Assembly: GCA_019914945.1 (NCBI GenBank)
Contig: CM034099.1
Location: 620,001-684,000 of the forward strand
Source: Typha latifolia
Taxonomy: Eukaryota; Streptophyta; Magnoliopsida; Poales; Typhaceae
Length of the DNA: 64,000 bases
Direction of reading: 5' to 3'
Made by a program: the position numbers and the translations under genes. The stretch's first letter is position 1. Every line of letters begins with the position of its first letter. Shown one piece after another: positions 30,654-38,843 of this stretch. The notes beneath the pieces were generated by a model. It saw only the letters and a list, made by a program, of their open reading frames with translations, was not told the DNA's origin and did no database searches.

Positions 30654-30872
30654 ATGGCGAGTGTTCTGAACAAGATCAGTAGCTGCACAAAACTTGTCAT
30701 ACTACTCGTCCTGGTGATCTCAAGCTTCCAACTTCTCGAAGCCTCAAGGCCATTGAAGGAAAGTTGGTGGGCTCAAGATGTGGTTGAACTCCTGAGCTCT
30801 CTTTCCAACTCGCCGGTGCCGCCGTCCAGCTCGTCGTGCACCACTCACAGTCCCAGCAATCACTGTCGGTAG
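30654..30872 (+). CDS. Small secreted peptide precursor, array member 1
   Basis: Intronless 72-aa precursor. A hydrophobic signal peptide (CTKLVILLVLVISSFQLLEA) is probably cleaved after LEA, leaving about 42 residues that begin SRPLKESWWAQDVVELLSSL and end PVPPSSSSCTTHSPSNHCR. The two cysteines near the C-terminus could form a disulfide. Secretion signal, RPL motif, Pro-rich tail and paired Cys are the build of plant phytocytokine precursors; the tail is most reminiscent of SCREW/CTNIP peptides (remembered C-T-x-x-P pattern with a second Cys), less so of PIPs. This member lacks the SG before the cysteine that members 2-4 carry. A GGAAATCAATAA element follows at about 30980, matching the poly(A) region of its paralogues. 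Family placement is tentative; existence of the gene is well supported by conservation among copies. Confidence 0.8.
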   Translation: MASVLNKISSCTKLVILLVLVISSFQLLEASRPLKESWWAQDVVELLSSLSNSPVPPSSSSCTTHSPSNHCR

Positions 30873-31694
30873 ATTGATCTGATGCATGGATTACAAGATT
30901 TAAGATTACGAAGTGTATATATGGCAGCCAATTATAGTTATAGGCAACTGTGTAGAAGCATTCTTTGTATTCTTTCAAGGAAATCAATAACGATTGATAT
31001 TATCTTTTTTTCTATAATTTTCACTGTTTGTTGTAGAACTAGAGATGAAAAGAGTTCTTATATGAACTTCTTTCTAAAGAATAATCTCAGTTTACTTTGA
31101 AATAATTATTTCTTATATTACTTGACCGTGATATAATTCGCTGAGTAACCCAATCAATATTTCAATGCCTCAAAATTCGTTTAAATTTAAGGGCATTTTA
31201 TGAGAAATACCCTCCCTTTTATCATCATCAAAAACTCCACCACGTTACTTTGTATTTTTTTTTCTTGCCCCCAAAATACTTCTATCTAAATCTAATCTTA
31301 TATAGCTACTAAAGAAACATAGAATATTATAATATATTTTTTAAATAAATTACTTGAAATATACTTTGATAGTAAAAAAAATTTTGACTCAAATACCTCT
31401 AAACTATATCATCATTATCGTAAATATATTTTCTGCTAATTTCTTAGTAATTTTTTCATTCATTCATAGATTGCCATGTACAAATCACGTGATTCCATAT
31501 GATATATTTATACTTATATTTTAAAGTGAAGAAGAGAGATAAATTTTAGGTTAAAATTAATCTTATCTTATCATTGGCATTTTGATCTTATTAGTTTTTC
31601 CCTCTGTATCATTAGTGGATGAGATATTTTTAATAATTCTACGTGTCAAAAGTAAAAGAAAAAAAATTAAATGTATCCAAGTGTAATTATCACT

Positions 31695-32020
31695 AAATAA
31701 TATTCAAAACAGTGGATTTGATTTATGTCCGTGATACCTGGGAAGTATTGAAGTTGGGCTCGGTCTTATGGGCGCGTTTGCTACGTAGTCGAGTAACAAA
31801 AACTACGACCAGGTCTTGAATTCAAACTTTTAGACCAAACCATGCAAAAAATGAAACTGAGACTCTCTACGTACTCCTATCTATATATATCTCCTCCTTC
31901 CTTTCTCTCGTTTCTCATCACATCTACCTAGCTCGTATAATAATTTACAAGCTCGATCACTGCTCCAGCTCAATCAAGAGATCATAGATCGAGATTTAGT
32001 TCTTCCCTTATATATAACTT
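31695..32020 (+). promoter_or_regulatory. Type II promoter of peptide gene 2, followed by a type I core
   Basis: A long block shared with the regions upstream of the genes at 35886 and 38622: TTGGGCTCGGTCTTATGGGC, GCGCGTTTGCTACGTAGTCG, ACCAGGTCTTGAATTCAAAC, TTTAGACCAAACCATGCA, then TATCTATATATAT as the first TATA region at about 31880. After a leader ending near AATTTACAAGCTCGATCAC, a second TATA-like CCCTTATATATAAC at about 32006, followed by TTCATCAAAATCC, matches the type I core promoter. GCGCGT fits the CGCG box of CAMTA factors; function is inference. Confidence 0.6.
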
Positions 32021-32101
32021 CATCAAAATCCACAACCACCTCCATTCGATCCATCTCCTTCTACACTCGATCACTTGCGAGCTAGAATTGATAGATTAAA
32101 A

Positions 32102-32320
32102 ATGGCGAGTGTTCTGAACAAGATCAGTAGCTGCACAAAACTTGCCATTCTACTCATCCTGGTGATCTCAACCTTTCAAGTTCTTGAAGCCTCAAGGCCA
32201 TTGAAGGAAAGTTTGTGGGCTCAAGATGTGGTTGAACTCCTGAGTTCTCTTCCCAAGTCGCCGGTGCCGCCGTCCGGGCACCCGTGTGTCACCAATAGTC
32301 CGAACTTTAACTGCCGGTAG
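32102..32320 (+). CDS. Small secreted peptide precursor, array member 2
   Basis: Intronless 72-aa paralogue of member 1. The start is the ATG at 32102 because paralogues begin MASVLN there; the frame is open further upstream but without an ATG. Signal peptide CTKLAILLILVISTFQVLEA, mature start SRPLKESLWAQDVVELLSSL, tail SPVPPSGHPCVTNSPNFNCR with Cys pair separated by eight residues. Compared with member 1 it has Leu instead of the first Trp of the WW pair and a full PPSG motif. The coding region and near leader resemble member 1, while the distal promoter is of the other type. TTTCAAGGAAATCAATAAAG at about 32434 is the shared poly(A) region. Likely an apoplastic signalling peptide; receptor unknown. 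Confidence 0.82.
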   Translation: MASVLNKISSCTKLAILLILVISTFQVLEASRPLKESLWAQDVVELLSSLPKSPVPPSGHPCVTNSPNFNCR

Positions 32321-32451
32321 ATTGATACATGAAGACTATATATATATATATATATATATAAATACTAAGTACTTTTGATACACAGGCAATTGTATATTGG
32401 TATTTTGTAAACTTTATTTGTACTAGTCTTAATTTCAAGGAAATCAATAAA

Positions 32452-33480
32452 GGAAATTGATTGATTATATTGTTTGTATTTTTTTTTCCTATCCCAAATT
32501 CTAAACTGCATAATATGTAAACGATACGCAGATATTTATCACGACCCAAATGATGCCAATCAAACATACCTTCACTTTTAAAATTATTTAATAAAAATTT
32601 TTGTATATAATGCATACTTTATAATGTATTGTGATTTATTGCAAATTGAGTCATATGATTTAGTAAATTATAATTAGCGTAACACCATGAGAATATTTCG
32701 TAGTTTAGTCATTTTATTTCTAAAATAATTAAAATACTCTTAGTATAACTTGGTTGAGGATATTTTATAATTTTCTAATATTATTAACTTAACTCAGAAA
32801 TTTAGTTTCTGCACATATTCACTAAATTATATAGCTCGATTTGTAAATAGTAAAAATATAAGGCGTAAATTATAATTTTATTAAAAAATATGGTGTTATA
32901 TGCAAATTTCTTAATGTTCGAGAATTAAATCTTTTTATTATGAACTTAGAATAATATCTCAACTTGTACATATCTATTTAAACAAATATCAGATATATAA
33001 AAGCTTATCTATCTTGTTGTCTTTACAACTTAAAATTTGCGTTTAAACTTGTTGGGCTAATTGTAGTTTACTAATCCACTTTTGTTGTTTAAATTTAAAC
33101 ATTTTAACTCTCCGTGGTCTACCATTAAATTGCAACCATATTACTTCTGACATTCTCAAATCAAATTATATTTTTACGTAGTATAATTAAGTGTTTTTAT
33201 ATCCTTGTTAACAACTGACTAAAATAATTGCAACTTAGTATAAACTAGAGAAAGATTAAATACATGAATTAAAAGTTAACATCAACCCAAACCGGATACC
33301 CGCCGTAATTCTTTCTAGAGAGAATTACCACAAGAAAGCTAAATGTAAACAGGTATTACTTTGACCGGCCTCTATTTTCTTCCAAAAAGAAACGGATACT
33401 TGACTTGACTAAGAACATTAATGTATAGAGCTGCTAGAATTCTTATTATTTAGTTCATTTCAAACTAATATATTTATGAA
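32452..33480. other. Spacer between peptide members 2 and 3
   Basis: AT-rich intergenic DNA. It is recognisably repeated between members 4 and 5 (for example CTTGTTGTCTTTACAACTTA near 33014 and again near 36821), so it is part of the duplicated block. Several W-box cores at its right end (TTGACC 33361, TTGACT about 33399 and 33404) belong to the promoter of member 3. Confidence 0.6.
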
Positions 33481-33769
33481 GTCAAGCTAGGTACGTACTT
33501 TCATTTGATGGTCTTAATTCCCAAAAGAGTATTTCTTGTTTACCGACCAAACGTTACTCAACACGGTTCTCGTTGTAGTAAAACGAGACCAAGTATTCCG
33601 TTCATAAGATTTCATCATTTTTGACTTCAAACTTTAAGAAATCAAACCATGTAATGAAATAAAAGTCTCCCTTCCCCTATATAACTATAACTCCCTTCGT
33701 TGTCATTCATCCCCTTCATCAAAATCCACACCAGTTGACGCACTCGATCACTTCCGAGAAGTAATTAAG
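33481..33769 (+). promoter_or_regulatory. Type I promoter of peptide gene 3
   Basis: Shares the type I layout: ACTCAACACGGTT at 33556, GACCAAGTATTCC, TTGACTTCAAACTTTAA at 33621, CCTATATAACTATAACTCCC as the TATA region near 33677, and ATCCCCTTCATCAAAATCC in the leader. With the upstream cores at 33361-33410 there are at least four TTGAC(T/C) motifs within about 400 bp of the start codon. Confidence 0.6.
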
Positions 33770-33988
33770 ATGCTGGGTATTCTGAACAAGAAGAGTAGCT
33801 GTACAAAACTTGTCATACTACTCATCCTGGTGGTCTCAACCTTGCAAGTTCTTGAAGCCTCAAGGCCATTGAAGGAAAGCTGGTGGGCTCGAGATGTGGT
33901 TGAACTCCTGAGTTCTCTTCCCAAGTCGCCGGTGCCGCCGTCCGGGCACTCGTGTGTCACCCATAGTCCGAACTTTAACTGCCGGTAG
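33770..33988 (+). CDS. Small secreted peptide precursor, array member 3
   Basis: Intronless, 72 aa. It begins MLGILNKKSS rather than MASVLNKISS, a feature shared only with the pseudogene at 37533. Signal peptide CTKLVILLILVVSTLQVLEA, mature start SRPLKESWWARDVVELLSSL, tail SPVPPSGHSCVTHSPNFNCR. It keeps the WW pair of member 1 and the full SGHSC tail. The 3' flank (GGGATGAGTTTCTAGGGACG near 34051) is also shared with the pseudogene, showing that the two came from one duplication. Predicted secreted signalling peptide; processing sites are not known. Confidence 0.82.
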   Translation: MLGILNKKSSCTKLVILLILVVSTLQVLEASRPLKESWWARDVVELLSSLPKSPVPPSGHSCVTHSPNFNCR

Positions 33989-34450
33989 ATTGATGCATGT
34001 ATGAATTATATATATAAGACTGTATACTTAATTAGTATGCATGTCGTGTCAGGGATGAGTTTCTAGGGACGTTGGGAATAATATTATGTTACTAATTTTC
34101 GATAATGTACTGGCAATTGTATACAGCGATTAATTGTAACCATTCTTTGTTATCCTTTCAAGGAAATCAATAAAATAAGGATATTTGATTCATATATTCG
34201 TTCTTCCCTGTTTGTTGTATTCTTTCAAGGACATCAAATGTATAGAGGCACTAAGTTTTGCAGCATTACTGTTCATTCATTATTTATCCGAATATGGATA
34301 TTTAAGAAGGGATATTTTCATTTCATACGCTCCATTACGCCTTTATTTTAGTTTACACACCAGCTTTAGTTTTTTTTTCTTATTTTTAATTTGATCCTTG
34401 CCTTTTCAATATCTCGTAAAGAAAATCTTACCATAAAATGATAATCGACT

Positions 34451-35490
34451 GTTATGAACCGATTTGATCCGGATCCGATTTGAAAAGTTCTAGACTAGAT
34501 TTGGGACGTGACCTTCGAAGAAAGTTGCGGATGATCTAGCCCTTGGATCTTCCTGAAATTTAAATATGTTGTCGCCCTTGAAAATAGCTTTCCAATGAAT
34601 CTAAAATCGCATGGTTTGAATAGTTAGATCTTGAGATGGATGGTTAGATCTTGAGATATCGACCAAATAGTGGTCGAAGGTCAGATAAACCCTAGCTCGA
34701 TAGCCCTTCAATGGCTAGATATGTGCTAGGTTAATTCCTTGGTGTGAATGGGGAGAAGTTGTTGTAGAAAAGAAAAATTATGAGTTAGAAGAAGCTGACT
34801 AAAACGGTGGAAGGAAGGAGATGGGAGAAGGCACCGATTGCTAAAGGAGATAAAAGCACAAAGTTTTCAATTATCAGATTAAATTTCAATTACGGTTTCA
34901 TTCACATATTTATAGGGGCTCACCCTAGGAACCCAAACAACTAAGTTAAAATTCTAACAAATCAACTAAACCAGTTTTTCTTATCTTCACAAATTAACCC
35001 TGCAGATAGATTCCGAATGTCGAGAAGTCGTGAATACTTTGTAGATCTCGAGGTTGGCGATCTTATATAATTTGTTTGATATTATTCTAATGTCCGTAGA
35101 ATATACTACGAATATTTTTCTAAAATTGCGCAAAATTAAATTTAGCTTATTAAATAAAATCTCAATCTATTAAAGCTCTAACTAAACCAAATAACCAAAT
35201 AAGATAATTAAACTCAATCCATTAAGCTCAGTCTTCCTTTGATGTGACCATAAGAGTATGTTCGATCAAAACTATTAGATGCACTATTAATATTCAATTG
35301 TAATTGTCTCATACACCATTTCATTAATTTCTCATTATCTTTCTCAATCATAAGTTATCGTGAATAGCTATATAACATACTCATCCTTATATCTTGTATC
35401 ATTACTTTAGTTATTTAATCTTATGAGATGACGTATTTTTAATAATTGAAGAGAGTTCAAAATAAAAAAGTTGAGGAATATATATATATA
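34451..35490. other. Unassigned insertion-like segment between members 3 and 4
   Basis: After the shared sequence ending TATAATCGAC-like at about 34450, member 3's downstream DNA stops resembling that of the pseudogene. About 1 kb follows that has no counterpart elsewhere in the array. It contains CCGATTTGATCCGGATCCGA, a locally repeated GGTTAGATCTTGAGAT phrase (about 34619-34659) and no coding capacity. It could be part of a retrotransposon or a non-autonomous element; no terminal repeats were identified. A TA run at about 35480-35501 marks its right side. Confidence 0.4.
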
Positions 35491-35494
35491 TATA

Positions 35495-35815
35495 TATATA
35501 AATAATGTTCAAAGCAGTGGATGTGAACAATGTCCGTGATACCTGGGAAATATTGAGTTGGGCTCGGTCTTTTGGGCGCGTTTGCTACGTAGTCGAGTTA
35601 ACAAAAACTATGACCAGGTCTTGAATTCAAACCTTTAGACCAAACCATGCAGAACTGAAACTGAGACTACCTACGTACTTCTATCTATATATATCCTCCC
35701 TCCTTCGTCTCGTTTCTCATCACACCTACCTAGCTCGTATTATAATTTTCAAGCTCGATCACTACTCCAGCTCAATCAAGAGATCATAGATCGACATTTA
35801 GTTCTTCCCTTATAT
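35495..35815 (+). promoter_or_regulatory. Type II promoter of peptide gene 4, followed by a type I core
   Basis: Nearly the same as the region upstream of member 2: TTGGGCTCGGTCTTTTGGGC, GCGCGTTTGCTACGTAGTCG, TTAGACCAAACCATGCAGAA, CTATCTATATATATCC as first TATA region, then leader, then CCCTTATATAACCTCATCAA as the second, type I-like core at about 35809. A direct sequence reading supports the shared stacked layout; which core is used is unknown. Confidence 0.6.
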
Positions 35816-35885
35816 AACCTCATCAAAATCCACAACCACACCTCCATTCGATCCATCTCCTTCTACACTCGATCAATTATTAAAA

Positions 35886-36104
35886 ATGGCGAGTGTTCTG
35901 AACGACATCAGTAGCTGCACAAAACTCGTCATTCTACTCATCCTGGTGATCTCAACCTTTCAAGTTCTTGAAGCCTCGAGGCCATTGAAGGAAAGTCTGT
36001 GGACTCAAGATGTGGTTGAACTCCTGAGTTCTCTTCCCAAGTCGCCGGTGCCGCCGTCCGGGCACTCTTGCGTCACCAACGGCCCGAATTTTCACTGTCC
36101 GTAG
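35886..36104 (+). CDS. Small secreted peptide precursor, array member 4
   Basis: Intronless, 72 aa, closest to member 2. It begins MASVLNDISS; signal peptide CTKLVILLILVISTFQVLEA, mature start SRPLKESLWTQDVVELLSSL, tail SPVPPSGHSCVTNGPNFHCP. The last residue is Pro instead of the Arg found in members 1-3, and Asn-Gly replaces the Asn/His-Ser pair, so the terminus may be processed or perceived differently. The Leu-Trp pair is shared with member 2 only. A MITE is inserted about 47 bp after the stop codon, ahead of the shared poly(A) sequence (GGAAATCAATAAAG near 36578), which would lengthen its 3' UTR. Confidence 0.82.
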   Translation: MASVLNDISSCTKLVILLILVISTFQVLEASRPLKESLWTQDVVELLSSLPKSPVPPSGHSCVTNGPNFHCP

Positions 36105-36150
36105 ATTGATACATGAATAACTATATATATAAAAGTATATATGTTACTAA

Positions 36151-36522
36151 GATCTCGTTTATTTCAGGAATAAAATTTATTATTATTTTTAAAATAAATT
36201 TTTTTTATTTAAGAAATAATTATACTTATATTTATTTATATTCTAAAATAAAATTATAATAATTATTTTTGATACGATACAAAGTGAAAAAAAAATCCAA
36301 AAAAAAGAAGTGTTTTACTTTTGATGAAATTATAATAAATACTCTTTGATGTAATATAAAGTATGATGATGAGATAGATATTAAGGGTAAATTAGTAAAT
36401 GAGTTAGTGTGTAGTATAAGATATAATTTTGATAAATAATATTTATATTTTAGAGTATAATTATTATAATATTTAATTATTATTTTAAAATAAAGAGTTA
36501 TATTTCTGAAGTAAACGAGTGC
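36151..36522. mobile_element. Tourist-like MITE in the 3' flank of member 4
   Basis: 372-bp AT-rich insert absent from the equivalent place after member 2. The ends are inverted copies: GATCTCGTTTATTTCAGGAA on the left and, reverse-complemented, GCACTCGTTTACTTCAGAAA on the right. The insert is flanked by TAA at 36148-36150 and 36523-36525. A TAA target duplication with short inverted ends fits PIF/Harbinger-derived Tourist MITEs. It has no coding capacity. The site resembles the uninterrupted member 2 flank (ACTAAGTACTTTTGATACAC at about 32363). Confidence 0.8.
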
Positions 36523-36525
36523 TAA

Positions 36526-37299
36526 ATTTTGATATACATGCAATTGTATAAACATTCATTGTACTCTTAATTTCAAGGAAATCAATAAAGGAAATTGATT
36601 GATTACATTCTTTGTATTCTTTCCCATCTCAAATTCTAAACTGCATAAACGTAAACCATATGCAAATATTTATCATAAGCCAAATGATGTCAATCATACC
36701 TTGGCTTTAAAATTATTTAATTTAATATTTGTCCACGTTTTAGTGACAATAGAATCTTTTTATTATCAAGTAGAATAATATCTCAACTTATACGTCACAC
36801 ATATAAATGCAAATCCCAGCTTGTTGTCTTTACAACTTAAACTTTGCGTTTAATTAGGCAAATTGTAGTTTACTAATTAACTTTTGTAACCATATTACTG
36901 CTAACATTCTCAAATCTAATTATATTTTTATGGAGATAATTAAGCGTTTTCATATCTTTGTTAACCACTGACGACTAACGATTGAATCTTTATATAGACC
37001 ATAGAAATATTAAATACTTAAATTAAAAATTTATGAACGTAAGTTAAAGTCAACCCAAACCGGATAATGTAATTTTTTTTCCTAAAGAAAATTACCACAA
37101 GAAAGCTAAAGGTAAACAGATATTACTTTGACTGGCCTCTATTTCCTCCAAAAGAAAGGGGTATTTGACTTGACTGAGAATATTAATATATCGAGCTAGC
37201 TACTAAATTCTTATTACTTAGTCCATTTCCAACAAATATATTTATGAAGCCAAGTAAGGTACTTTCATTTGATGCTCTTGATTTCCAAAAGTTTCTTTC
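36526..37299. other. Spacer between member 4 and the member 5 pseudogene
   Basis: AT-rich DNA that parallels the spacer between members 2 and 3, with the same order of short conserved phrases (for example CTAAACTGCATAA near 36639, TTTGCGTTTAA near 36843, TTGACTTGACT near 37166). It contains W-box cores of the following type I promoter. Confidence 0.55.
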
Positions 37300-37532
37300 T
37301 TGTTTACCAAACACTACTCAATACGGTTCCAGTTGCAGTTAAACGAAACCAAGTATTCCATTCATAAGATTTCATCACTTTTGACTTTAAACTTTAATTA
37401 AGAGATCAAGCCATGCAATGTAAAATTATACCTTCCCCCTATATAACTCCCCTCACTGTCATTCATCCCCTTCATCAAAATCCACACCAGTTAACACACT
37501 CGATCACTTCCGACTTCCGAGAAGTAATTGAG
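37300..37532 (+). promoter_or_regulatory. Type I promoter in front of the pseudogene
   Basis: Keeps the type I order: ACTACTCAATACGGTTCC at 37313, AACCAAGTATTCC, TTGACTTTAAACTTTAA at 37381, CCCCCTATATAACTCCC near 37435, ATCCCCTTCATCAAAATCC in the leader. The promoter has decayed much less than the coding region behind it. Confidence 0.5.
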
Positions 37533-37710
37533 ATGCTGGGTATTCTGAACAAGAAGAGTAGCTACACAAAACTTGGCATAGTATAGAAGTTCTTGAAGCC
37601 TCAAGGCCATTCAAGGAAAGTTGGTGGGCTCGCCTGAGTTCTCTTCCCAAGTCGCCGGTGACGCCGTCCGGGCACTCGTTTGGCACCGATAGTCCGAACT
37701 TTTAACTAGT
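37533..37710 (+). pseudogene. Peptide precursor pseudogene, array member 5
   Basis: Begins like member 3 (MLGILNKKSS) but reaches a stop codon, TAG at 37584-37586, after 17 codons. Compared with member 3, about 35 bp of the signal-peptide region are missing after ACAAAACTTGGCATA, and a second deletion removes the stretch between GTGGGCTCG and CCTGAGTTCTC (the DVVEL codons). The tail region has changed as well: the codon for the first cysteine reads TTT in the corresponding segment and the final Cys-Arg is lost. The gene therefore cannot make the family peptide. Leader and 3' flank remain similar to member 3. Confidence 0.85.
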
Positions 37711-38370
37711 ATGCATGTCAGGGATGAGTTTCTAGGGACGTTGGGAATAATATTATGTTACTAAGTTTCGATAATCTACTGGCAATTGAATATAATACAG
37801 CTATTAATTGTAACCATCCTTTGTTATCCTTTATTTATCCGAACTCTATGGATATTTAAGAAGGGATATTTTCATTTCTTAATTTCAATTTAATCCTTGC
37901 CTTTCCAATATCTCGTAAAGAAAATCCTACTAAAGAATTTTATAATCGACAAATAAGTTCGAGAATTCACCGGGTTTAATTTGATTCTATTAAAAATATA
38001 ATAGTAGAATTACAAATAGTTAAAGAGCACAGGGTGTAAATTGTAAACCGTAATAAATACATAATACAGGGTGTAAAATAAAAAGAAACTCCACATTTTC
38101 TCGTGGCGAAAATTAAACCCATAAGAAAATATAATCTGAAGAACAATCAAACATCCAGCATAACGGTCTGGGGATCTCGTTCAAAGTAGTGGTAACCATT
38201 CAACACTTCACCTCTATATATTCAACTGCCAATTAAGTCTTAACCTATGGTAGAGTAGACCCACGGCATCCATTAAGAATAACGTGGTGATTAATTAACA
38301 CTATATATATATATATACACACACACGTACATATTGTACAAAATAATAATATTCAAATTAAGTGATGTAG

Positions 38371-38621
38371 GTGATAAGGTGGGAAATATTGAAGTTGGGC
38401 TTGGTCTTATAAATGGGCGCGTTTGCTACGTAGTTGAGCAACGGAAACTATGACCAGGTCTTGTATTCAAACCTTTAGACCAAACCATGCAACCTTAAAA
38501 GTGAGACTCTTCCTACGTACTTGTATTTATATTTCCCCCCTTCTTTCGTCTTGTTTCTTATCACATCTACCTGCTACTAGTATTACAATTTACAATCGAG
38601 AGAGAGAGAGAGAGGACTAGT
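38371..38621 (+). promoter_or_regulatory. Type II promoter of peptide gene 6
   Basis: Shares with members 2 and 4 TTGAAGTTGGGCTTGGTCTT, GGGCGCGTTTGCTACGTAGT, TGACCAGGTCTTGTATTCAA, CCTTTAGACCAAACCATGCA and TCCTACGTACTTGTATTTAT, then a leader ending AATTTACAATCGAGAGAGAG just before the ATG. Unlike members 2 and 4 it has no second type I core between promoter and start codon. Confidence 0.6.
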
Positions 38622-38843
38622 ATGGGTTTCGTTGGTGTTAGAAGAGATTGGTGTATGCCATTGTTGCTTGTTATCTTGCTCGTTTCGCACTCGCAGCCAC
38701 TAGTAGAGGCGAGGCCTCTTGAAGAGAGCTGGTGGTGGCCGGCGGAGTTTAGCGATAGCCTCCTGAGTTCTCTGCCGAAAAATACTCCGGTGCCGTCGTC
38801 CCAAGTTTCGCCGGGGACGCATAGCCCCGGTGGGTCGAGATAG
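38622..38843 (+). CDS. Divergent small secreted peptide precursor, array member 6
   Basis: Intronless, 73 aa. N-terminus MGFVGVRRDW, then signal peptide CMPLLLVILLVSHSQPLVEA; mature start RPLEESWWWPAEFSDSLLSS; tail NTPVPSSQVSPGTHSPGGSR. The order RPL-ESWW-LLSSLP-PVP-THSP identifies it as a relative of members 1-4, yet both tail cysteines are absent and Gly residues replace them. Codons and flanks after the stop differ from the other members. The conserved promoter and intact frame suggest it is functional, perhaps as a linear rather than disulfide-linked peptide. It could be the older type II gene from which the promoters of members 2 and 4 derive. Confidence 0.75.
   Translation: MGFVGVRRDWCMPLLLVILLVSHSQPLVEARPLEESWWWPAEFSDSLLSSLPKNTPVPSSQVSPGTHSPGGSR

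Follow-up and report, generated by a model that had tools for sequence, protein, structure and literature searches.

CTNIP peptides bind the receptor kinase HSL3, the name given to AT5G25930, recruit BAK1, and trigger Ca2+, reactive oxygen species (ROS) and mitogen-activated protein kinase (MAPK) responses, according to PMC9191895. The same paper reports that the last 23 residues of CTNIP4 are sufficient and that both of its cysteines are required for activity and receptor binding; it defines CTNIPs by two cysteines at a spacing of 9-11 amino acids (aa), describes Arabidopsis CTNIP5 as divergent and inactive, and finds grasses to be without a clear CTNIP. As far as the accessible text goes, a 2026 review adds stomatal control by CTNIP/SCREW via ABI1/ABI2 and OST1 (PMC13056886), and a survey of wheat secreted peptides merely mentions SCREWs (PMC9532867). 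Here we describe a tandem array of genes for putative secreted peptides in a 64,000-nucleotide stretch of DNA (C1:620001-684000; hereafter the window), which belongs to a 214-Mb genome in 62 contigs with plant-type gene content. We think it rather likely that this array is a local, probably lineage-specific expansion derived from CTNIP/SCREW-type signalling peptides.

The array occupies positions 30654-38843 on the + strand and comprises five intact ATG-initiated open reading frames (ORFs; W1-W5, of 72, 72, 72, 72, and 73 aa) plus one pseudogene, exactly as a preliminary description of this DNA had claimed (Table 1). A common signal peptide, also claimed there, agrees with the strongly hydrophobic N-terminal segment found in 5/5 intact ORFs (best 12-residue Kyte-Doolittle mean 2.8-3.3, a crude measure and not SignalP). 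This segment leads into ...EAS-RPL in W1-W4 and ...EA-RPL in W5, so that small residues precede R32 and R31, respectively. The proposed mature start, (S)RPL-x-E-S, was found as well: all five intact members contain R-P-L-x-E-S, and four have a serine before the arginine. Each also has a Leu/Ser-rich block and a Pro-rich tail; the statement that all share LLSSLP was slightly overstated, because W1 reads LLSSLS (4/5). Two tail cysteines in four members are correct, but their spacing is not eight or nine: exactly 8 residues separate them in each of W1-W4, and W5 lacks cysteines beyond the signal peptide. W5 is closest to a gene on contig C6, with 79% identity. A Pfam scan of the five intact precursors returned no family above its cut-off, and a PDB search with a single array member, W3, returned no match.

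More can be learned from the relatives of the array. Searching the genome with four members, followed by inspection, yielded at least 22 intact family ORFs, 5 within the window and 17 outside. Eleven of these are canonical, i.e., CTNIP-like, with tails such as SGCTNNPNNHGGTCP (the loose pattern defining them was written after seeing the sequences); four are the shifted C-x8-C members W1-W4; and seven have no cysteine beyond the signal peptide, namely W5 and six genes within about 36 kb of contig C6. The number of residues that separate the final two tail cysteines is 10 in nine canonical genes, 11 in one and 13 in one (C7), and two members on contig C4 (C4a and C4b) possess additional cysteines. 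The contig that carries W1 also has, on the opposite strand and some 47-49 kb upstream of it, two canonical genes. Matches outside this count of 22 are C4:7834718 (one tail cysteine), C2:1628915 and C6:11250649 (GGTNG tails), two weaker matches on C14 and C60, and the broken copies: the window pseudogene, two on C6, and at least two on C4. Next to the two intact C4 genes lie broken CTNIP-like pieces (L015 3182-3316, 3738-3884, 6651-6812, 6850-6951), and an S-[RK]-P-L-x-E segment recurs inside the precursor of the intact C4 members.

Two of the Cys-less genes on C6 encode repeats: C6f (L013 5074-5433; C6:4479074) has three tandem units of about 23 residues in one precursor, as read from the translation, and C6g (L016 5738-6295; C6:4489738) has six tandem 23-aa units; SESVLSSLIKAPVPPSGVSPVTD is an example of the repeated unit. 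Both resemble a multi-peptide prohormone, and multi-copy precursors occur in other plant peptide families. In a peptide tree of 20 of the 22 members (C6f and C6g omitted), W1-W4 group together (99/98), as do W5 and C6a-d (100/99).

The connection to CTNIP/SCREW peptides runs through the canonical genes. When a profile of all eleven was compared with 177,635 distinct solved sequences, the first of four matches was 9w1s_C (NGCTNIPRGTPRC; E 0.058), a peptide that shares its PDB entry with AT5G25930, that is, HSL3; 9uob_C (TaNNS-C) was also among the four (E 1). Chain 9w1s_C likewise headed the seven PDB matches of a profile built from five canonical members (E 0.39) and was the single match, up to E 10, of a profile of 14 family members (E 0.35). 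For alignment with hhalign, the outside CTNIP-type sequences were the aligned parts of three PDB chains, 9w1s_C EIRFVFQALQRGPVSGSGPNGCTNIPRGTPRC, 9wum_B GPVRGSGRNGCTNIPRGSGRCH, and 9uob_C RGGGSAGAPNGCTNNPKHPPGGKC. The canonical set matched these at P 8.2e-7, with 0/300 column shuffles as good. TaNNS-C was left out of a repeat test, because the canonical profile itself had first listed it; P was then 5.0e-6 for full precursors and 2.3e-6 for mature parts (0/150 shuffles each). As a yardstick, the canonical set gave P 0.0023 against the plant's own IDA family. In the second step, from the array to the canonical genes, the mature parts align at P 9.5e-11, and the W5/C6 group aligns with the canonical set at P 4.6e-8 (0/100 shuffles as good in either case).

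Several results weigh against this derivation. The match to 9w1s_C at E 0.058 is not significant by itself and is followed by unrelated chains, TMH4C4 (E 0.19) and erythropoietin receptor (0.95), which align to the signal-peptide part, and five MORC3 zinc-finger chains (E 0.81-1.1) are among the seven matches of the five-member profile. An array-only profile found no CTNIP chain among its matches to solved sequences. Compared directly with CTNIPs, the array reaches P 0.082 with hhalign, and 38/300 shuffles are as good with full precursors; its mature part reaches P 0.024 (3/150), and the W5/C6 group P 0.13 (6/150). The literal CTNIP is absent from all 22 family members; exact C-T-N-x-P occurs in 2/22 and C-T-[NHS]-x-P in 8/22, the latter being found at the first cysteine in 0/5 intact array members. 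The cysteine spacing of the array is at or under the published 9-11: with 8 residues between and a position difference of 9, W1-W4 fit if the spacing is counted as a difference and not otherwise, W5 has no cysteines to fit, and 10/11 canonical genes are within range, the C7 gene with its 13 lying outside. The peptide tree is weak in its deeper branches (3/17 inner branches starred), and one array pair, W2-W3, has a ratio of nonsynonymous to synonymous change (dN/dS) of 1.42, from 16 changes. In terms of precursor type, all five intact members agree with a limit of <150 aa plus signal peptide, being 72-73 aa long with a hydrophobic N-terminus.

As the direct array-CTNIP comparison is weak and both steps via the canonical relatives are significant, membership would be by descent through intermediates; the sequence comparisons support such a descent from CTNIP/SCREW, and the array, taken alone, cannot be assigned securely to the CTNIPs. 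The likeness to SCREW/CTNIP suggested in the preliminary description therefore stands for the route via canonical relatives of the same genome and fails, or is marginal, in direct comparison. Profile alignments gave the same split (0/100 and 0/300, 0/150 along the two steps; 38/300 and 3/150 directly), and the remark made there that the CTNIP signature is not exact was right. Expansion, too, is borne out by the 22 or more intact relatives and a block duplication; that it is lineage-specific is what we infer.

Nucleotide matches show that the array arose by tandem and block duplication. Gap-free matches to W2 across 250 nt, at 81% for W1, 90% for W3, and 88% for W4, are not due to chance. The two block copies are joined by blastn pieces at 31694-32369/35499-36151 (88.5%), 32373-32592/36527-36721 (79.5%), and 32920-34158/36745-37832 (73%), and two short further pieces extend the match to 34449/37950. 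Across the six array pairs, dN/dS of the whole coding sequence (CDS) is 0.53, 0.71, 0.48, 1.42, 0.26, and 0.45, thus below 1 in 5/6, and the mature part has a pooled pN/pS of 0.48, as measured between paralogues. The corresponding value is 0.26 for the pooled repeat cores of C6g and 0.37-1.06 for C6a-d pairs, where two values near 1 come from few changes. Purifying selection on the array, judged from paralogues, thus seems moderate and not strong.

Receptors of the matching type are encoded in the same genome. The search used one HAESA ectodomain query (157 matches; 74 of 687 candidates scored), so that the number of HSL3-type genes is a lower bound. As read over the first exon of each gene, at least three are open there, and there is one frameshifted copy (L036). 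L033, L034, L036, and L039 form one group with 100/100 support among 17 receptors, L036 and L039 being placed by their similarity to L033. Among solved structures, the ectodomains of L034 and L033 best match the AT5G25930 chains of 9wum and 9w1s, above HSL1 and HAESA; the next-best chains for L033 are GSO1 and 9uob_A, then HAESA. L036 (C11:9911815-9916221) is a 98% tandem copy adjoining L033 on C11; it is a pseudogene or an assembly error, because its frame changes in the ectodomain at about residue 169. In three of four receptor pairs the ectodomain has diverged more than the kinase part (L033/L034 identity 57% vs 74%), and in the recent pair L033/L036 both have diverged equally. None of the four genes lies within the window or beside the peptide clusters. 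By sequence, HSL3-type receptor genes are thus present in more than one copy.

Three other explanations have to be weighed against descent from CTNIP/SCREW. The array could be an independent and undescribed secreted-peptide family in which two-cysteine, Pro-rich tails arose by convergence; this would agree with the weak direct comparison to solved CTNIPs and the lack of C-T-[NHS]-x-P in all five intact members. An undescribed family, as considered in the preliminary description, is made less likely by the eleven CTNIP-like genes of the same genome through which the array joins CTNIP/SCREW: none of the shuffles equalled either the step from the array to these genes or the step from them to CTNIPs, and we consider convergence unlikely. 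The cluster could also be decaying and functionless, its duplications being too recent for the frames to have closed. One copy in six is indeed dead, more broken relatives exist on C4 and C6, W2-W3 exceeds a dN/dS of 1, and 26% of simulated copies keep such a frame open after 25 random substitutions. Mere decay is, nevertheless, improbable in view of the pooled mature pN/pS, the five CDS pairs below 1, the low pN/pS within C6g, and the gap-free alignment of W1-W4 across the CDS, whereas their flanks have many gaps.

Very unlikely, in our view, is an origin from IDA/PIP-type peptides, i.e., ligands of HAESA/HSL2 or RLK7. Shared with the plant's IDA family (GFLPRGAPIPPSGPSKQHN) are indeed the PPSG core and, in part of the tails, the LP(K/R) block, and all three groups beat 100/100 shuffles when compared with IDA sequences, the Cys-less W5/C6 group most strongly (P 8.9e-5). 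However, the scores against IDA stay under those against the canonical set (17.2 vs 48.3 for the array, 23.2 vs 37.6 for W5/C6), the IDA end (K/R)(R/Q)(H/Q)N is absent from 5/5 intact array members, and the genome separately encodes at least four ordinary IDA-type precursors (L060-L063), a count that leaves out two further IDA-probe matches on C2 and C5. Moreover, the plant's IDA family shows no significant match to the PDB CTNIP-type peptides (7/100 shuffles as good), and the available part of a 2026 review terms CTNIPs sequence-unrelated to IDA and PIP (PMC12907539). Apart from these groups, two short ORFs with hydrophobic starts, L027 1415-1636 and L029 1349-1546, end in PPSAPIGGTNGSNN and PPSGPSGGTNGDNN; their Cys-free tails look like a form midway between the PPSGPS of IDA-type and the GCTNxPNN of CTNIP-type tails.

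If the array does derive from CTNIP/SCREW peptides, the signal peptide would be cut before R32 (R31 in W5) and the C-terminal part (about LLSSLPKSPVPPSGHSCVTHSPNFNCR) released into the apoplast, with a small disulphide loop, C62-C71, in W1-W4. By analogy with CTNIP, the array peptides might be perceived by HSL3-clade receptor kinases together with a SERK/BAK1 co-receptor, and outputs might be those of CTNIP/SCREW (Ca2+/ROS/MAPK and stomatal). With T-[HN]-x-P as the reference point, W1-W4 have their first cysteine one position N-terminal of the canonical one, and their loop is two residues shorter than in 9/11 canonical members; most likely, this shifted and tightened cysteine pair would alter specificity among receptor paralogues, or potency. 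W5 and its C6 relatives, which would have lost their cysteines, could address another receptor, act as antagonists, or be decaying. Since CTNIP4 needs both cysteines for HSL3 binding, their peptides would be unable to make that cysteine-dependent contact and should act differently, and the partial constraint on this group would suggest another mode of action.

A more speculative and rather unlikely extension is that CTNIP-derived peptides diverged in this lineage into three ligand types, canonical (mostly C-x10-C), the shifted C-x8-C array, and a Cys-free branch including the 3- and 6-copy precursors, with HSL3 paralogues that evolved separately as their receptors, or with the Cys-free type comprising antagonists or ligands of another HAESA-group receptor. 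If true, this would amount to a cysteine-independent, multi-copy-precursor mode of CTNIP-type signalling. The occurrence of all three peptide types with several HSL3-type receptors in one genome would offer a natural experiment on how ligands and receptors co-evolve. In addition, the C6 repeat unit hints at the start and end of the functional peptide, a point that PMC9191895 leaves open for CTNIPs in planta. A text search for two literal peptide strings returned 0 papers, and the literature matches listed contained no description of Cys-shifted or Cys-free CTNIP relatives or multi-unit precursors, the SCREW paper itself not being among them; the novelty of these forms is thus weakly indicated.

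Six of ten ORFs neighbouring the array matched Pfam (a zein-binding domain, a topoisomerase, F-box/kelch, PPR, and two homeobox/POX pieces), none of which suggests a functional link to the array, and Rfam gave 0 matches in the window. A TATA-type box lies 75-93 bases 5' of the ATG in W2, W3, W4, and the pseudogene. W-box enrichment was considered as a sign of stress or elicitor induction and discarded as evidence, the counts per 1 kb upstream being inconsistent among genes (W1 4, W2 2, W3 5, W4 0, pseudogene 5, W5 0; window 1.1/kb).

Table 1. Positions of the array genes and duplicated segments within the window.
Feature	Position	Strand	Description
W1	30654..30872	+	Intact precursor, 72 aa; C-x8-C tail CTTHSPSNHC; LLSSLS replaces LLSSLP
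W2	32102..32320	+	Intact precursor, 72 aa; tail CVTNSPNFNC
W3	33770..33988	+	Intact precursor, 72 aa; tail CVTHSPNFNC
W4	35886..36104	+	Intact precursor, 72 aa; tail CVTNGPNFHC
Pseudogene remnant, copy of W3	~37533..37705	+	Stop after 17 codons, stretches missing, both tail cysteines lost
W5	38622..38843	+	Intact precursor, 73 aa; cysteine-free downstream of signal peptide
Duplicated block, copy 1	31694..34449	+	Holds W2 and W3; blastn
Duplicated block, copy 2	35499..37950	+	Holds W4 and the pseudogene; blastn
W5 upstream region	38345..38595	+	78% identical to W2 upstream (31696-31950), 81% to W4 upstream

Among known systems, IDA/IDA-LIKE peptides have the Pro-rich PPSG core in common with the array, but their end motif is absent from it and the score is weaker than to the CTNIP-like set. 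TaNNS-C (PDB 9uob; wheat judging by its name; motif CTNNP) has a tail, APNGCTNNPKHPPGGKC, that resembles the canonical SGCTNNPNNHGGTCP of this genome, and differs from the array in its canonical cysteine position. No paper about this peptide is among the matches listed; in 9uob it was solved together with chain A, a kinase-domain-named receptor that resembles HSL3-type ectodomains, despite what PMC9191895 says about grasses. With the CTNIP/SCREW system itself (Arabidopsis CTNIP1-5; receptor HSL3/NUT; PMC9191895) the array has in common a short precursor with signal peptide and, in W1-W4, two C-terminal cysteines; the array tail aligns via its canonical relatives, and HSL3-type receptor genes are present in the same genome. 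In contrast, the array is devoid of C-T-N-x-P, its first cysteine is displaced by one, and W5 is Cys-free; between the cysteines lie 8 residues in the array, compared to 9 in the two solved CTNIP peptides, 11 in TaNNS-C, and 10 in 9/11 canonical genes.

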